A stretch of 39,344 nucleotides of DNA from Crenarchaeota archaeon 13_1_40CM_3_52_17. Its GTDB lineage: Archaea; Thermoproteota; Bathyarchaeia; 40CM-2-53-6. This document shows positions 11,490 to 17,525 of this stretch, one piece after another. Numbering within the stretch: the stretch's first letter is position 1; each line of letters opens with the position of its first letter. The notes under the pieces were generated by a model. The model searched no databases, was not told the origin of the DNA, and was given only the letters and a program-made list of their open reading frames with translations. The position numbers and the translations under genes were made by a program. The DNA lies in NCBI GenBank assembly GCA_001918745.1, contig MNGN01000028.1:1-39344 (forward strand), read 5' to 3'.

Positions 11490-13232
11490 TTGACACAACC
11501 ATCTGCTACTGCTCCGGCAAAGAAAATGCTCTCCAGGACTGTGATCTTAGCCATTGTCGTCATCGTTATTCTGGCAGTAGGCATCGGCGCTGCTGTTGTC
11601 CTACTGCGTCCCGCGCCCGCGGCCTCGATAACCCTCTGGTACAATAGCACCGGTCACTACGGGGACACAGAACCAGCGGTTGCACAGCTGATCAAGGCTC
11701 AGATTGAAGCGACTGGCAAAGTGACGGTCAATCTTCAATCAGAAGACTGGGCAAGCTACCGAGCTGATTTTGCAAAGGGCAACCTTCCTTTCTTCCTCCT
11801 CGGCTGGTACCCCGACTACTTCGACACAGATGACTACGTGTCACCCTTCTACTCAACCGCCGGCGCACAAAGCGAAGGAGCCTTCTACACTAACGCCACC
11901 ATGGACAAGTGGATCACCAATGAGACTGCGTCAGTTGACCCGACAGTGCGAGGGGCTTACTTCCAGCAACTCCAGACCCAATCTGCAAAGGATGTCCCGT
12001 ACATTCCTCTGTGGACGACAAACGCTCACGTTGTCTACGACTCTGACATCACAGGTGTGTTTCTGCATCCCGTCGTCTTCAAGTATTTCATCATGAACAA
12101 GCCTGGCTTCGACCACATCACTGTCGGAACAACCGATTCTCCCACATCCTTCGACCCGGCTCTCGCCTACGACTACTTCTCCACGAACATCATCAACCAA
12201 GTCTTCGACACGCTTCTGGTCTATGAACCGACGAACGGAACACTACTTCCAGGACTTGCTGCCCAGGTACCAACTGTCGGTAACGGCATATCCGCCGACG
12301 GCAAGACCTACACATTTCAACTACGCCCCGGATTGACCTTCACCGATGGTAGCTCGTTGAACGCTACTACGGTAAAACGTGCCATACAGCGAGTAATCAG
12401 CCTTAACTTGCAAGGCAGTGCCGAATTCCTCCTTGAGCAAGTCGCGGCGCTTGGAAAGACCCCCACCATAGACACTCCAAACTGCCCTGGTCCCTGTACT
12501 ACGATCGTATTTCACCTGCTACAGCCGGTAGGCTTGTTCAATCAGATAATGGCTTTCTCAGTCGCCGCCCCAGTGCCTTGGTGGTACAACCAGACAGGAG
12601 CACAGCAAGACGTAGTTAATGGCAACGTGAAGGTCACTGGCGATGGCCCATATTCTCTAACCTCACTCACTTCGAACCAGCAATACGTCCTCCAAAAGAA
12701 CACCAACTACTACAACCCAGGATTGTACTCGGCGTTCGGAATACCAACGATTCCCATTCTAAGCAAGATCATCATCAACCGGTACAGCGACTCCTCATCA
12801 TTGAAACTGGCGATTCAGACCCATCAGATCAACATGGCATACCGAACCTTGAACCCAACAGACCTTACTGCTTTACAGGGCTCAGCGGCTTCTCTGAATC
12901 TCAAAGTGGACATTGGAACGAGCCCCCAGATAAGATTCCTCGTGTTCAACGTCAAGACCGCACCCTTCAATGACGTAAGGGTTAGGCAGGCAATAGCGTA
13001 CGCGGTAGACAGAAGCTCGATCGTCAGCAACGTGTTCCACGGATTCGCTGTCACTCTCTACTCGATGGTGCCACCCGGATTCTTCGGCCCTGACTATTCG
13101 AGTCCCGTGTTCCAGACGGCGTACGGTTCTTCACCGGACGTTGCGAAGGCTACGAGTCTTTTCTCCGCTGCCTCTCTTGCCATTAGCCTCAGCATGTTCC
13201 AGACAGACGCGCTGGAAAGAAACTGGCTGTGA
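11490..13232 (+). CDS. ABC solute-binding protein, family 5, with rearranged domain order
   Basis: An extracytoplasmic peptide/oligosaccharide-type binding protein of 580 residues, anchored by one N-terminal membrane helix (residues 14-39), followed by a Pro/Ala linker. The domain order is odd. Residues 47-205 ('ITLWYNSTGHYGDTEPAV', 'FFLLGWYPDYFDTDDYVSPF', 'AKDVPYIPLWTT') correspond to the C-terminal part of ordinary family members. Residues 207-562 ('FDHITVGTTDSPTSFDPALA', 'DGKTYTFQLRPGLTFTDGS', 'GDGPYSLTS', 'NDVRVRQAIAYAVDRSSI', 'SSPDVAKATSLFSAA') correspond to the N-terminal and middle part. The last 18 residues are unrelated. It is thus either a circular permutation or the remnant of a protein carrying the C-terminal lobe at both ends. 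The permease and ATPase genes follow, so it is probably the binding protein for that transporter. TTG start. Confidence 0.85.
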   Translation: MTQPSATAPAKKMLSRTVILAIVVIVILAVGIGAAVVLLRPAPAASITLWYNSTGHYGDTEPAVAQLIKAQIEATGKVTVNLQSEDWASYRADFAKGNLPFFLLGWYPDYFDTDDYVSPFYSTAGAQSEGAFYTNATMDKWITNETASVDPTVRGAYFQQLQTQSAKDVPYIPLWTTNAHVVYDSDITGVFLHPVVFKYFIMNKPGFDHITVGTTDSPTSFDPALAYDYFSTNIINQVFDTLLVYEPTNGTLLPGLAAQVPTVGNGISADGKTYTFQLRPGLTFTDGSSLNATTVKRAIQRVISLNLQGSAEFLLEQVAALGKTPTIDTPNCPGPCTTIVFHLLQPVGLFNQIMAFSVAAPVPWWYNQTGAQQDVVNGNVKVTGDGPYSLTSLTSNQQYVLQKNTNYYNPGLYSAFGIPTIPILSKIIINRYSDSSSLKLAIQTHQINMAYRTLNPTDLTALQGSAASLNLKVDIGTSPQIRFLVFNVKTAPFNDVRVRQAIAYAVDRSSIVSNVFHGFAVTLYSMVPPGFFGPDYSSPVFQTAYGSSPDVAKATSLFSAASLAISLSMFQTDALERNWL

Positions 13233-13299: not shown

Positions 13300-14340
13300 A
13301 TGCCCAAACAGGGGTCCCTGCTCGCCTACACTGTCTCCCGACTCATACTCGCGCTGCCGACCCTGCTAGTCCTGCTCACGGTGCTATTTCTAGTATTGAG
13401 GATTCTCCCGGGCGATCCCATAAGCGCGCTTGAAGCAGGCAGAAGATCCACTCGGGATATAGCCGCGGACAAGGCTAGGCTTGGGCTGAACCTGCCCTGG
13501 TGGGTTCAATACCCCGTTTACCTTAGCCAGGTTTTCTCTGGAAACTTCGGCACCTCGCTCGGCCAGATATACTTGGGACAGCCGGTCCTCCAGGTGATCC
13601 TGCAAAAACTCCCTGCGACTATCGAGCTCGCAACTGGGGCCATGCTGGTCGCCACCCTCGTTGGAGTGGGGACCGGAATAATTGCGGGCTCACGACGGGA
13701 CAGGCCTCCCGACATCGTAGTCAGACTCTATGGTAGCATAATCTGGGTCATCCCCGTCTTCTGGCTGGGCCTGATGCTTCAGCTCGTCTTTGCCGTAGGA
13801 TTGCATTGGTTCCCCCCTAACCTACGATACGAGCCAGACCCAGTATTCTTCCCACCACCATCGCATCTTACAGGACTATACACCCTCGACTCCTTGCTCG
13901 AAGGCCGGATCGACAAACTCGCAATCTCCCTAGCCCATCTCGCCCTCCCCTCCCTGACTCTCGGGCTCGTGCTGAGTGGATTCTTCACTAGAACGGTCAG
14001 AGCAAACCTTCTTCGCACAATAAACTCTGACTATGTCGAGGCAGCGAGGGCTCGCGGTATCCGCGAACGATACATCGTCTATCGTTACGCATTCAGAAAC
14101 GCGTTGATCCCTGTCGTTACCATCCTCGGCCTTCAGTTTGCAATTCTCTTTGCGGGTGCAGTCCTCACCGAAAGAACGTTCTCCTGGGACGGAATGGGGA
14201 CCTTACTTCTCACGTCCATAGACAGCAGGGACTACCCGATGATTCAGGGGACCGTAATCGTATACGCGATAATCATAGTAGCCATCTCAGTCGTCATCGA
14301 CGTGATTAATGGTTTCATCGATCCGCGAGTGAGATACTAG
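13300..14340 (+). CDS. dppB: peptide-type ABC transporter permease (DppB/OppB family)
   Basis: Membrane permease of 346 residues with about six spans. The N-terminus 'LAYTVSRLILALPTLLVLLT' followed by 'FLVLRILPGDP' is the signature of the DppB half, as is 'RLGLNLPWWVQY' (usual 'LGLD.P...QY'). The ATPase-contacting EAA loop reads 'EAARARGIRERYIVYRYAFR' (about residues 247-266), and the end 'IDVINGFIDPRVRY' is standard. The ATG at 13300 follows the terminator-like T tract. The next gene starts on the base after this stop. Confidence 0.94.
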   Translation: MPKQGSLLAYTVSRLILALPTLLVLLTVLFLVLRILPGDPISALEAGRRSTRDIAADKARLGLNLPWWVQYPVYLSQVFSGNFGTSLGQIYLGQPVLQVILQKLPATIELATGAMLVATLVGVGTGIIAGSRRDRPPDIVVRLYGSIIWVIPVFWLGLMLQLVFAVGLHWFPPNLRYEPDPVFFPPPSHLTGLYTLDSLLEGRIDKLAISLAHLALPSLTLGLVLSGFFTRTVRANLLRTINSDYVEAARARGIRERYIVYRYAFRNALIPVVTILGLQFAILFAGAVLTERTFSWDGMGTLLLTSIDSRDYPMIQGTVIVYAIIIVAISVVIDVINGFIDPRVRY

Positions 14341-15264
14341 TTGGGAATCGTCAAGCCAGCGGAAGCTGAAGACACCGAGAAGCTGGTCCGGTCGAGTTCA
14401 TCCATCGGAACAATACTTAATCTGCTTCTTCAAGACAGACGCACACTTGCAGGCGTTCTGTCATGGGTAGGCATTGGAGTGCTTGTATCCTTCGTCGTCA
14501 TAGCCATCTTCGCATATCCCTTAGCACCGTATGATCCCCAGCGAATCTTCCTCACCCCTCCTAACCAGCCTCCAAGCCTTCAGCATCTAATGGGGACTGA
14601 TGATCTTGGCCGGGACCTCTTTAGCCGGATGTTGTACGGTGCTCGCACTTCGCTCGAGATAATGACAATTGGCGTCTTTCTTGCCCTCGCTATCGGTTTC
14701 CCGATCGGTCTCGTTTCTGGCTACCTAGGAGGAAAACTCGATCGGGTGCTTGTTCTAGTCATGGATTCTGTGTACGCTTTTCCAGGTCTCCTCTTGGCCG
14801 CCATGGTTGCACTCTTCCTCGGAAAAGGAGTGTTCAATGTCGGGATTGCGATCACCGTCATCTACGTACCCACATACTTCAGAGTCACAAGAAACCAGAC
14901 ACTCTCTGTCCGAGAGGAAACTTATGTAGACGCGGCTCGAGCATTGGGGGCGGGAAACTGGACGGTCATATGGTCATACATAGCGTACAACGTACTCATC
15001 TCAATACCAGTTGTATTTTCTCTTAGTGCCGCCGACGCGATACTAACCGCTGCAGGCTTGAGTTTTCTAGGGTTGGGGCTAGAACGACCGACGCCCGATT
15101 GGGGTTTGGATCTCAGTGACGCACAAAAGTTCCTTACATCGGGAGTCTGGTGGTCTTCGTTCTTCCCCGGTGTAATGATCATCATCCTCACAGTCGGTTT
15201 GAGCTTTCTGGGTGAGGGTCTCAACGACATAGTGAACCCACTTCTGCGAAAGGAGCGAGCCTAG
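14341..15264 (+). CDS. dppC: peptide-type ABC transporter permease (DppC/OppC family)
   Basis: Second permease, 307 residues. Family marks: 'PLAPYDPQRIF' after the first span, 'HLMGTDDLGRDLFSRMLYGARTSL' (about residues 80-103, the diagnostic D-x-x-G-R-D-x-x-S/R motif of DppC), the EAA loop 'DAARALGAGNWTVIWSYIAY' and the ending 'GEGLNDIVNPLLRK'. The N-terminal 30 residues are hydrophilic and cytoplasmic. The TTG start is immediately after the dppB stop with no gap, and the dppD ATG follows directly after its own stop. Confidence 0.94.
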   Translation: MGIVKPAEAEDTEKLVRSSSSIGTILNLLLQDRRTLAGVLSWVGIGVLVSFVVIAIFAYPLAPYDPQRIFLTPPNQPPSLQHLMGTDDLGRDLFSRMLYGARTSLEIMTIGVFLALAIGFPIGLVSGYLGGKLDRVLVLVMDSVYAFPGLLLAAMVALFLGKGVFNVGIAITVIYVPTYFRVTRNQTLSVREETYVDAARALGAGNWTVIWSYIAYNVLISIPVVFSLSAADAILTAAGLSFLGLGLERPTPDWGLDLSDAQKFLTSGVWWSSFFPGVMIIILTVGLSFLGEGLNDIVNPLLRKERA

Positions 15265-16221
15265 ATGGATCCCATGCTCCAGGTTCAGGATCTTTCAGTC
15301 CACTACAAAACACGCCGTGGATTTGTAAGGGCTCTCGAGGAACTCAGATTGGACGCCATACAAGGTGAAACTGTAGGAGTTGTAGGGGAAACCGGGTCCG
15401 GGAAGTCGACTTTGGGAAAGGCTATTCTCGGAATCCTACCCGCGGGAACTCAGGTAGATGGTAAGATCCTGTTTCGAGGGAGGGATCTTACTCAGCTCAG
15501 CAATCAGATGTACCGGCGACTTCGGGGGGAAGAGATTGCGCTAATCTTCCAGGATCCAATGACCCGGCTTAACCCTCTGATGACTATTATGGACCACTTC
15601 GTGGAAGAGATTCGAGACCACGAGTCTGTATCAGCCGATGAAGCTCGGAGAAGGGCAAGGGAGGCCCTCGTCTCCATGGGAATTCACGAGTCTCGAATCA
15701 AGAACTATCCTCACGAGTTTTCTGGCGGCATGCGTCAACGGATCATGATCGCGTTGGCGATAGTGCTGAAACCGTCGCTATTGATTGCAGACGAACCGAC
15801 GACCTCTCTCGATGTGATAGTCGAATCCCAAATTCTAGGAATCCTTCAAGATCTCAAAAGGGCTTACAGCATGTCTCTTCTTCTCATTACCCATAATCTT
15901 GGGATTGTTGCGGAAGTATGCGATCGCGTAGCAGTTCTTTACGCCGGAAAGCTCGTTGAACTAGGACCTGTCAGAGACATTTTCCGCAAACCACTTCATC
16001 CTTACACACAAGGACTTCTCTCGTCAATCATCCATCTGGAAACGAAGGAGTTGCACTCGATTGAGGGAAGTCCTCCCAACATGATTGCGCCACCCTCGGG
16101 GTGCCGCTTTCATCCTCGATGTCCTTATGCCCAGTCGATCTGTGTTGAGAGGCTTCCACCCCTGGTCGAGTTTGAGCCGGGCCATTTTGCCGCTTGCCAT
16201 TTCGGAGACAAATTCCTGTGA
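15265..16221 (+). CDS. dppD: peptide-type ABC transporter ATPase (DppD/OppD family)
   Basis: A 318-residue ABC ATPase. Walker A 'GETGSGKST' (about residues 41-49), Q-loop 'IFQDPMTRLNPL', signature 'FSGGMRQR', Walker B 'LLIADEPTTSLD' and H-loop 'ITHNLG' are all intact. The C-terminal oligopeptide-transporter extension is present with its cysteine pattern 'CRFHPRCPYAQSIC' plus a later Cys in 'FAACHF', which in related proteins can bind an iron-sulfur cluster. The starting ATG directly follows dppC. Confidence 0.95.
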   Translation: MDPMLQVQDLSVHYKTRRGFVRALEELRLDAIQGETVGVVGETGSGKSTLGKAILGILPAGTQVDGKILFRGRDLTQLSNQMYRRLRGEEIALIFQDPMTRLNPLMTIMDHFVEEIRDHESVSADEARRRAREALVSMGIHESRIKNYPHEFSGGMRQRIMIALAIVLKPSLLIADEPTTSLDVIVESQILGILQDLKRAYSMSLLLITHNLGIVAEVCDRVAVLYAGKLVELGPVRDIFRKPLHPYTQGLLSSIIHLETKELHSIEGSPPNMIAPPSGCRFHPRCPYAQSICVERLPPLVEFEPGHFAACHFGDKFL

Positions 16222-17525
16222 TCAGTCCTGACCGATTGGCTCAGCCGGAGCTGGGCGATGAAATTCTCAGACTTGACAATCTGAACGTCCATTTTCCAGT
16301 GAAGATGCCTTTCGTCCAGCGCCTTTTGCAAAGAGAGAAGGCTGTGGTCCACGCCGTCGACGGCGTGTCGTTTAGCATTCACTCGGGTGAAATACTGGGC
16401 CTCGTTGGCGAAAGCGGATGTGGCAAGACCACAGTGGGTAAAGCGAGCGTCAGACTGCTCAACCCAACCTCTGGCCGAATCTTCTTTGCCGGTCAGGACA
16501 TCTCCAAGATTGGAGGCCGAAGCCTCAGGACCTTGAGAAGGAAGATGCAGATCATTTTCCAAGATCCTCATGCCTCTCTTAATCCTGCGATGGCCATCGG
16601 GCGGGCCATCGGACATCCACTATGGATTCATGGCTCCGAATTTGGGATCCAGAACTTGAGCTCCACCGTGTTCAGGGAGCGAGTTCAACAGAGAGTCCTG
16701 AGCACCATGAGGGAAGTTGGGCTCACGCCCGAGGAACAACTCTATGACAAGTTTCCAGGAGACCTTAGTGGAGGCCAAAAGCAACGCGCGGTAATCGCGC
16801 GGGCGTTGATACTAGAACCGGACCTGCTGGTAGTCGATGAGGGGGTGTCCATGCTCGACATGTCAATCAGGGCAAAGGTGCTGGAGTTGATGCTTGATCT
16901 CAAGCGCCAACACGGGCTAACCTATCTTTTCATCACACATGATCTGGCCACGGCCAAGTTCATCTGCGATCGCCTCGCGATCATGTATCTAGGCCGCATT
17001 GTCGAGATTGGACCAGCGAGAGACATCTACGCTGATCCTAAGCATCCCTATACCAAGGCATTGCTCCAGGTCGTCCCTATACCCGACCCGGACAAGAGGA
17101 AGGAGAAGGTGTTGCCGCGAGGTGAAGTGCCTGATGCTGTCCATCCGCCAGCCGGATGCCGGTTTCATCCGAGATGCCCAGCTGTCCTCCCATCTTGCGG
17201 CTGGGAGGGGCGCGACTTCGTCGATTTCCTAGATGAGCACCTATCGGATCCTAAGAGAGCTGGTGATGATGAGCTCGTTTTGGGACCGATCGAGAACTGG
17301 CGGACAAACGGTCTCGTCGCCAGCTTAGAAGCTAAACCACTAAACATTGAGGAGGCTGTTGAAAGAGTCAAGGCTGTTCTCGCGGAAGCTCCTATTGCAA
17401 TGGCTCAGGCTATCGAATCCGTATCCACACATAAGAGAACTGTGATAATTCATTTCCGCCCTCCAAACGAGTTGCGCCAGACGCAGGTTGGGGATAGGAT
17501 CGTGGAGTGCCTTCTCTACCAATAG
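16218..17525 (+). CDS. dppF: peptide-type ABC transporter ATPase (DppF/OppF family)
   Basis: Second ATPase of the transporter. Walker A 'GESGCGKTT', Q-loop 'IFQDPHASLNP', signature 'LSGGQKQR', H-loop 'ITHDLA' and the C-terminal 'CRFHPRCP' motif are present. Walker B reads 'LLVVDEGVSMLD': the glutamate is retained but the proline that normally follows it is Gly. The protein carries about 100 extra residues after the cysteine motif, ending 'FRPPNELRQTQVGDRIVECLLYQ' without a recognisable domain; similar tails occur in archaeal members. I start it at GTG 16218, a 4-nt GTGA overlap with dppD; a TTG at 16194 in the same frame is the alternative. Confidence 0.92.
   Translation: MISPDRLAQPELGDEILRLDNLNVHFPVKMPFVQRLLQREKAVVHAVDGVSFSIHSGEILGLVGESGCGKTTVGKASVRLLNPTSGRIFFAGQDISKIGGRSLRTLRRKMQIIFQDPHASLNPAMAIGRAIGHPLWIHGSEFGIQNLSSTVFRERVQQRVLSTMREVGLTPEEQLYDKFPGDLSGGQKQRAVIARALILEPDLLVVDEGVSMLDMSIRAKVLELMLDLKRQHGLTYLFITHDLATAKFICDRLAIMYLGRIVEIGPARDIYADPKHPYTKALLQVVPIPDPDKRKEKVLPRGEVPDAVHPPAGCRFHPRCPAVLPSCGWEGRDFVDFLDEHLSDPKRAGDDELVLGPIENWRTNGLVASLEAKPLNIEEAVERVKAVLAEAPIAMAQAIESVSTHKRTVIIHFRPPNELRQTQVGDRIVECLLYQ

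Follow-up and report, generated by a model that had tools for sequence, protein, structure and literature searches.

The window, that is, the whole stretch of DNA that was analysed, was 39,344 nucleotides long and was one entire contig of a 66-contig genome. An open frame of 580 residues lay on its forward strand at positions 11490 to 13232 (stop codon included) and started with TTG at 11490, a start that was backed by a methionine at the equivalent place in the relative L008. Pfam, profile and segment searches identified its product as a circularly permuted family-5 solute-binding protein. The four genes downstream, all on the forward strand and all assigned by Pfam, encoded a DppB-type permease (13300 to 14340), a DppC-type permease (14341 to 15264), a DppD-type ATPase (15265 to 16221) and a DppF-type ATPase (16194 to 17525). 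Each ATPase carried an oligo_HPY C-terminal region, and with two Opp/Dpp permeases and two such ATPases the window gene headed a complete importer operon.

The permuted order was apparent from the profile matches. SBP_bac_5 (PF00496) was the sole Pfam match in the 580-residue protein and scored 208.9 bits against a curated cut-off of 32.4. The match fell into two pieces, of which the upstream one (DNA 11646 to 11867, residues 53–126) corresponded to model positions 293–366, and the downstream one (residues 254–562) to approximately positions 4–278 of the 368 in the model. Hence, the end of the SBP_bac_5 model preceded its start in this protein. A canonical-order profile was built from 23 collinear proteins, and its matches are given in ORF numbering, in which each number is the protein residue plus 11. 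Positions 376–525 of this profile were found at ORF residues 57–207 (130.9 bits), and positions 46–367 at ORF residues 219–572 (259.9 bits). NCBIfam models concurred on the second part; for example, NikA positions 32–289 of 501 were matched at residues 235–519. With match scores of this size, chance does not account for the inverted order.

The segment searches divided the chain into three adjoining parts without gap, overlap or repeat, in agreement with the profile. C2 (residues 47–206; 11628 to 12107) was the C-terminal part of the canonical C-lobe and ended with the canonical C-terminus. N (residues 207–464; 12108 to 12881) was the canonical N-terminal part, and C1 (residues 465–563; 12882 to 13178) was the first part of the canonical C-lobe, followed by the new C-terminus. 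The canonical order is written N-C1-C2, the order in the window C2-N-C1 (form W), and a further order described below C1-C2-N (form X). A putative membrane anchor preceded C2 (residues 1–46; 11490 to 11627), where AlphaFold2 placed a helix at residues 16–39 and where three form W relatives had a similar sequence. A short variable tail followed C1 (residues 564–580; 13179 to 13229), with 44% identity to the relative G001 over 16 aligned codons. The old C-terminus met the old N-terminus at residues ~200–209 (12087 to 12116), within the stretch FKYFIMNKPGFDHITVGTTD (residues 197–216; 12078 to 12137), which was delimited by segments, codon comparison and alignment. Both segments were thus homologous to the family, stood in reversed order and covered the canonical protein with no part duplicated. 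A doubled lobe in the present-day protein was ruled out, as the segment searches found no segment twice. Since the protein departed from the collinear N-C1-C2 order along the profile, it was classed as a circularly permuted variant of PF00496, not as a plain member. The sequence-only reading had assigned residues 47–205 to the C-terminal region of the family and residues 207–562 to its N-terminal and middle regions, with the join exactly at the boundary of these two parts, and this observation was confirmed. Aligning the two parts separately to PF00496, a check that it had proposed, gave the inverted and not the normal order. Its description of a C-terminal lobe moved to the front was correct for C2, the ~160 residues with which the canonical chain ends, but not for the whole C-lobe, which also includes C1.

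Form W recurred in the genus. The order was found in 4 of the 18 genomes of the genus, including the window's own (G000), in one open frame each. The other three proteins were 84% (G001), 58% (G016) and 55% (G006) identical to the window protein; the G001 contig is the same as the public record VBAY01000080.1. Over residues 190–222, the 33 codons around the join, the proteins of the window and G001 were identical although dS in this stretch was ~1.1. The whole-gene dN/dS was 0.057 for the window and G001, and the three pairs gave 0.057, 0.040 and 0.063, values that are rough because dS in those pairs was 1.3–3.9. The form W gene is under purifying selection, and the open frames together with these ratios ruled out a pseudogene. 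Searches with the window protein matched 29 of 41 relative genomes at E ≤ 1e-3 and, across the class, 22 of 256 genomes at E ≤ 1e-30. Eight of these 22 were the members of the genus that carried form W or X. One matching locus was fetched from each of the remaining 14, and all 14 loci were collinear; hence, neither form was encountered outside this genus, where they stand amid closely related canonical proteins. One relative, L022, was confirmed when a collection of named genomes was scanned for short peptide patterns.

The predicted structure of the window protein was obtained with AlphaFold2 from 32 natural sequences or fragments and had a pLDDT of 87.1 and a pTM of 0.83. Only residues 1–10 and 573–580 formed stretches below a pLDDT of 50. 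The input alignment consisted mostly of collinear relatives cut into fragments, and the model may recall the canonical fold. All 50 of the Foldseek matches listed were, by title, solved binding proteins of the Opp/Dpp/Nik (peptide/nickel/opine) class. Foldseek, which keeps chain order, aligned 335–448 columns with TM values of 0.42–0.56 to the target; this partial cover was as expected if only the order-preserved N-C1 part could be aligned. A Foldseek comparison with viral proteins gave nothing useful. The join region was also compared with PDB sequences, and in none of the 60 matches listed did the best stretch span both sides of the join; each such stretch lay either on the N side, in the first part of the matched chain, or on the C2 side, in its last part. 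The model of form X, made from an alignment of 4 close sequences only, reached a pLDDT of 33.9 and a pTM of 0.29 and was uninformative about that form.

The ligand site was compared with E. coli DppA, in which Asp436 and Arg383 bind the amino and carboxyl groups of the peptide (PMC12136057). Asp109 of the window protein (11814 to 11816), in the motif GWYPDY, was aligned with DppA Asp436 (precursor numbering), the residue for the peptide amine. DppA Arg383, the residue for the peptide carboxylate, fell in an unaligned stretch of the window protein, and therefore the ligand may not be a dipeptide.

Another four members of the genus (G007, G014, G011 and G004) had order X. In G009, the contig bore no more than a fragment of the binding protein, which began C1-C2 and was counted as a partial form X. 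Forms W and X had the fused C2-N join in common, with similar length and residues, and differed in the end that bore C1. The G007 gene occupied the window locus, with the same neighbours on both sides: an ABC gene (93% identity) and a CbiQ gene (97%) upstream, and an M50 gene (89%) and an acetyl-CoA synthetase gene (88% over its last 89 residues) downstream. The same flanking genes were not seen in the contig stretches examined of the other form X genomes. The permuted gene was followed by DppB, DppC, DppD and DppF in the window and in each of the seven relatives with contigs long enough to reach the permeases (three of form W and four of form X), the G006 contig ending inside DppF. A close DppD (at least 70% identity) was found in 8 of the 18 members of the genus, and these were the very genomes that carried W or X.

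The operon genes differed in their histories. Unrooted trees of C2, N, C1, DppB and DppC each contained the W/X split and those of DppD and DppF did not; in these single-gene trees the support labels may be one node off after re-rooting, and support in the C1 tree was low. The split had a support of 99–100 in the concatenated binding-protein tree and in the DppB+C tree. For DppD+DppF it was rejected (p-AU 0.007), and the window genes at 15265 to 17525 grouped with the X-type species, whereas the binding protein, DppB and DppC of the window grouped with the W-type. This pattern suggests recombination inside the window operon. Since the split is contained in the trees of the first three genes and rejected for the last two, the binding protein, DppB and DppC seem to move between operons as one cassette.

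Permuted chains were also found outside these two forms. PF00496 was present in 38 of the 41 relatives, and many open frames carried inverted pieces. Three more groups were distinguished. Wp had the order C2-N-C1, mostly in open frames of 626–1077 residues, one of which lay in the window's own genome; on visual inspection, six of seven sequences seemed to bear a membrane segment at the C-terminus, and L014, the seventh, was truncated by the end of its locus. Xd had the order C1-C2-N, with a cut ~20 residues later than that of X. In Y, the second half of the chain came first, with a cut near profile position 235. W and Wp were cut at nearly the same place (profile position ~373). In mature E. 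coli DppA numbering, the profile alignment placed the cuts at four points, namely ~207–211 (Y), ~249 (X), ~268–273 (Xd) and between 341 and 345 (W and Wp). The X and Xd cuts are presumably near the hinge between the lobes. An aspartate equivalent to Asp109 was kept in W, in X and in the three Xd members. It was not conserved in Wp and Y, for which the alignment was less sure, and these two groups may bind other ligands. A phylum-wide sample of 398 genomes, taken from a larger group, gave long unbroken matches in W order in four families in the class (f1, f12, f13 and f14) and in two outside it (f30 and f71).

In total, 84 open frames of at least 400 residues fitted the collinear-protein profile: 29 collinear, 33 W-order, 5 X, 4 Xd, 8 Y and 5 partial. 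Two second copies, L039 (of L014) and L066 (of L009), were removed, and L050, scored as Xd, was most likely a truncated Y. The corrected tally of 82 comprised 29 collinear proteins, 32 in W order (28 of them Wp and 4 W), 4 X, 3 Xd, 9 Y and 5 partial; it is biased and not a frequency, as permuted queries had been used to retrieve many of the loci and the profile itself was made from 23 of the 29 collinear proteins, and it includes weak Y members (L106 and L107) and weak or broken Wp members (L101 and L051). A plasmid search matched 2386 records; the ten listed were all from Streptomyces, and both records inspected were collinear. Whole-genome coverage of other phyla consisted of a bare tally of 14 control genomes.

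Several observations were made on individual proteins. The own-genome paralogue G000:C13:62760-64721 (L114 7734-9707) was distant, had the order C2-N-C1 and an apparent C-terminal membrane segment, and lay near M29 and M20 peptidase genes; counterparts of the window DppB to DppF were not found in the 19-kb stretch around it. The same genome held two further PF00496-like open frames, on G000:C29 (L106, 914 residues) and G000:C8 (L107, 651 residues), with weak matches and seemingly the Y cut. Open frames of ~850–1180 residues with PF00496 matches were present in many relatives. L014 (G018:C65), a W-order paralogue, was an open frame of 1077 residues with a long tail, which we take to resemble PKD or Ig-like repeats. 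In the Xd proteins L098–L100, ~90 residues lay between the anchor and C1, and a CARDB domain was found in L099, the one scanned.

The relationships of the permuted forms were evaluated with a tree of 54 proteins and 465 columns, rooted on E. coli DppA and OppA; the mixed-form alignment A4 was left out of the analyses. The permuted forms fell in four separate places. W and X together (support 100) lay close to several collinear proteins, L103 and L010 among them. The neighbour of Xd (100) was collinear L015 (100), that of Y (100) was collinear L025 (95), and Wp (100) stood separately. Backbone support was weak (60–80) at several nodes, some of the labels being perhaps one node off through re-rooting, and the long branches of Wp and Y call for caution. 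Ten constraints were subjected to a first AU test with quick searches, and four were redone with full constrained searches. The separate positions and the rejection of joint clades given below suggest at least three independent origins of permutation, and four if Wp and Y arose separately; the cut points of these two groups differ, as do those of W and X.

Taken together, the product of the window gene is very probably the subunit that binds peptides for an Opp/Dpp-type ABC importer, a membrane-anchored and circularly permuted family-5 protein in a genus of Bathyarchaeia. The old C-terminus is fused to the old N-terminus via a linker of ~10 residues, and the new ends map to the loop of the C-lobe that separates the motif AKxLLxxAG from the strand ITLWY (approximately mature DppA 341–345). 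Neither the two-lobed fold nor the Venus-flytrap cycle is expected to differ from those of canonical proteins. The protein would be secreted and tethered to the membrane, hold the peptide between its lobes and dock on DppB and DppC, and DppD and DppF would drive uptake. The tether, however, would be relocated to the C-lobe from the N-lobe. The position of the anchor, which is before N in canonical proteins, before C2 in W, before C1 in X and after C1 in Wp, would fit a role of the tether in the rotations. The rotation itself may have arisen by duplication and fusion, then trimming, in an ancestor common to W and X, because both share the fused C2-N join. An intermediate C1-C2-N-C1, trimmed at either end, would yield the two forms. 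A lobe once present at both ends, of which one copy was lost, had been offered by the sequence-only reading in place of a true permutation; given the join shared with X, it is a possible route to the permutation and not a rival to it.

An artefact of assembly, in which two tandem genes for binding proteins were collapsed or wrongly joined, is practically out of the question. The same order occurred in four species, in one open frame each, with the sequence kept across the join, and no evidence in its support was found. The earlier view that no simple assembly collapse was involved is therefore sustained by the three other species, found by the search for relatives that had been recommended. 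The relatives, two kinds of curated profile and the confident predicted structure, the last also obtained on its advice, bore out a true circular permutation. The permuted protein might instead have retained its fold but serve as a sensor or chaperone bound to the membrane, no longer as a transport receptor. The permuted paralogue in the same genome, with its peptidase neighbours and without matches to DppB to DppF in 19 kb, points that way, but the window gene heads a complete importer operon, and the W/X split is common to the binding-protein, DppB and DppC trees, as expected of physical partners. Hence, a role other than that of a transport receptor is considered improbable.

Descent of all permuted forms from one old permutation, with the collinear forms regained, is very improbable. 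It is favoured by the nearly equal cuts of W and Wp and by the retention of Wp+Y as one clade in the full AU test (p-AU 0.147). However, the same test rejected a single permuted clade, and with it one common origin (p-AU 1.6e-5), as well as WX+Wp (4.9e-5) and WX+Xd (1.4e-66); Xd+Y was rejected in the quick test only. Moreover, the rooted tree gave WX, Xd and Y collinear proteins as their closest relatives. A more serious contender, which we place somewhat below an even chance, derives W and X by two successive permutations, in which one rotated form, present in the ancestor of the genus, was duplicated in tandem and retrimmed at a new point and no intermediate with C1 at both ends existed. C1 was in no case observed at both ends of a permuted protein. 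The 54-protein tree had W paraphyletic to X (support 76), which would fit an origin of X from W, whereas in another tree each of the two forms was monophyletic with respect to the other (W 95, X 100), and W monophyly was retained in the quick AU test (p-AU 0.45). A broader scheme can be offered only tentatively and is rather doubtful: family-5 proteins would have been permuted repeatedly in Thermoproteota, which we take to be the phylum of these archaea, in four lineages with four cuts; W and X would be exchangeable cassettes of binding protein, DppB and DppC and two trimmings of one intermediate; and selection on the tether would drive the rotations. If it were true, the genus would preserve permutation by duplication in progress.

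The reading of the window gene as a permuted importer subunit gives a rare natural view of the re-cutting of a protein chain. One large and well-understood family was permuted several times, with differing cuts, beside collinear relatives and in orthologous operons. This setting allows tests of the origin of permutations, of the loops in which new ends are tolerated and of a possible control of docking by the position of the tether. Recurrence, and two forms at orthologous operons, add to the interest of an isolated protein. The finding is also a caution for the annotation of these archaea, in which a two-piece profile match may denote a rotated protein and not a broken gene.

Compared with E. 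coli DppA and OppA (cluster C, PF00496), the window protein was homologous along the chain except for the anchor and the tail, had operon partners of the DppB, DppC, DppD and DppF kind and kept the peptide-amine aspartate. It differed in the order C2-N-C1 instead of N-C1-C2, in the anchor fused to the C-lobe and in the unaligned DppA Arg383. The nearest collinear relatives were L010, L053 and L058 of Bathyarchaeia, with 30–43% identity per aligned part; unlike the window protein, they showed the canonical N-C1-C2 order in one profile match. Among the papers listed in a survey of the open-access literature, no circularly permuted family-5 binding protein was found, which is weak evidence of absence. 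That survey yielded one natural permuted ABC-importer binding protein, Tp0684 (MglB-2) of Treponema pallidum, the nearest published parallel found. Tp0684 is a circularly permuted cluster B glucose-binding protein for which the authors propose a 'cluster Bc', and they suggest that tethering may favour the permuted topology (PMC4990184). As in the window, a probably tethered binding protein of an ABC importer underwent natural circular permutation. Tp0684, however, binds sugar, belongs to cluster B (type I) and differs in fold class and in the place of its cut, and one permuted topology was reported for it; no cluster B sugar-binding domain was found in the window protein, where PF00496 was the only Pfam match. 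In contrast, the archaeal proteins described here belong to cluster C, are probably anchored and have several cut points within one family.
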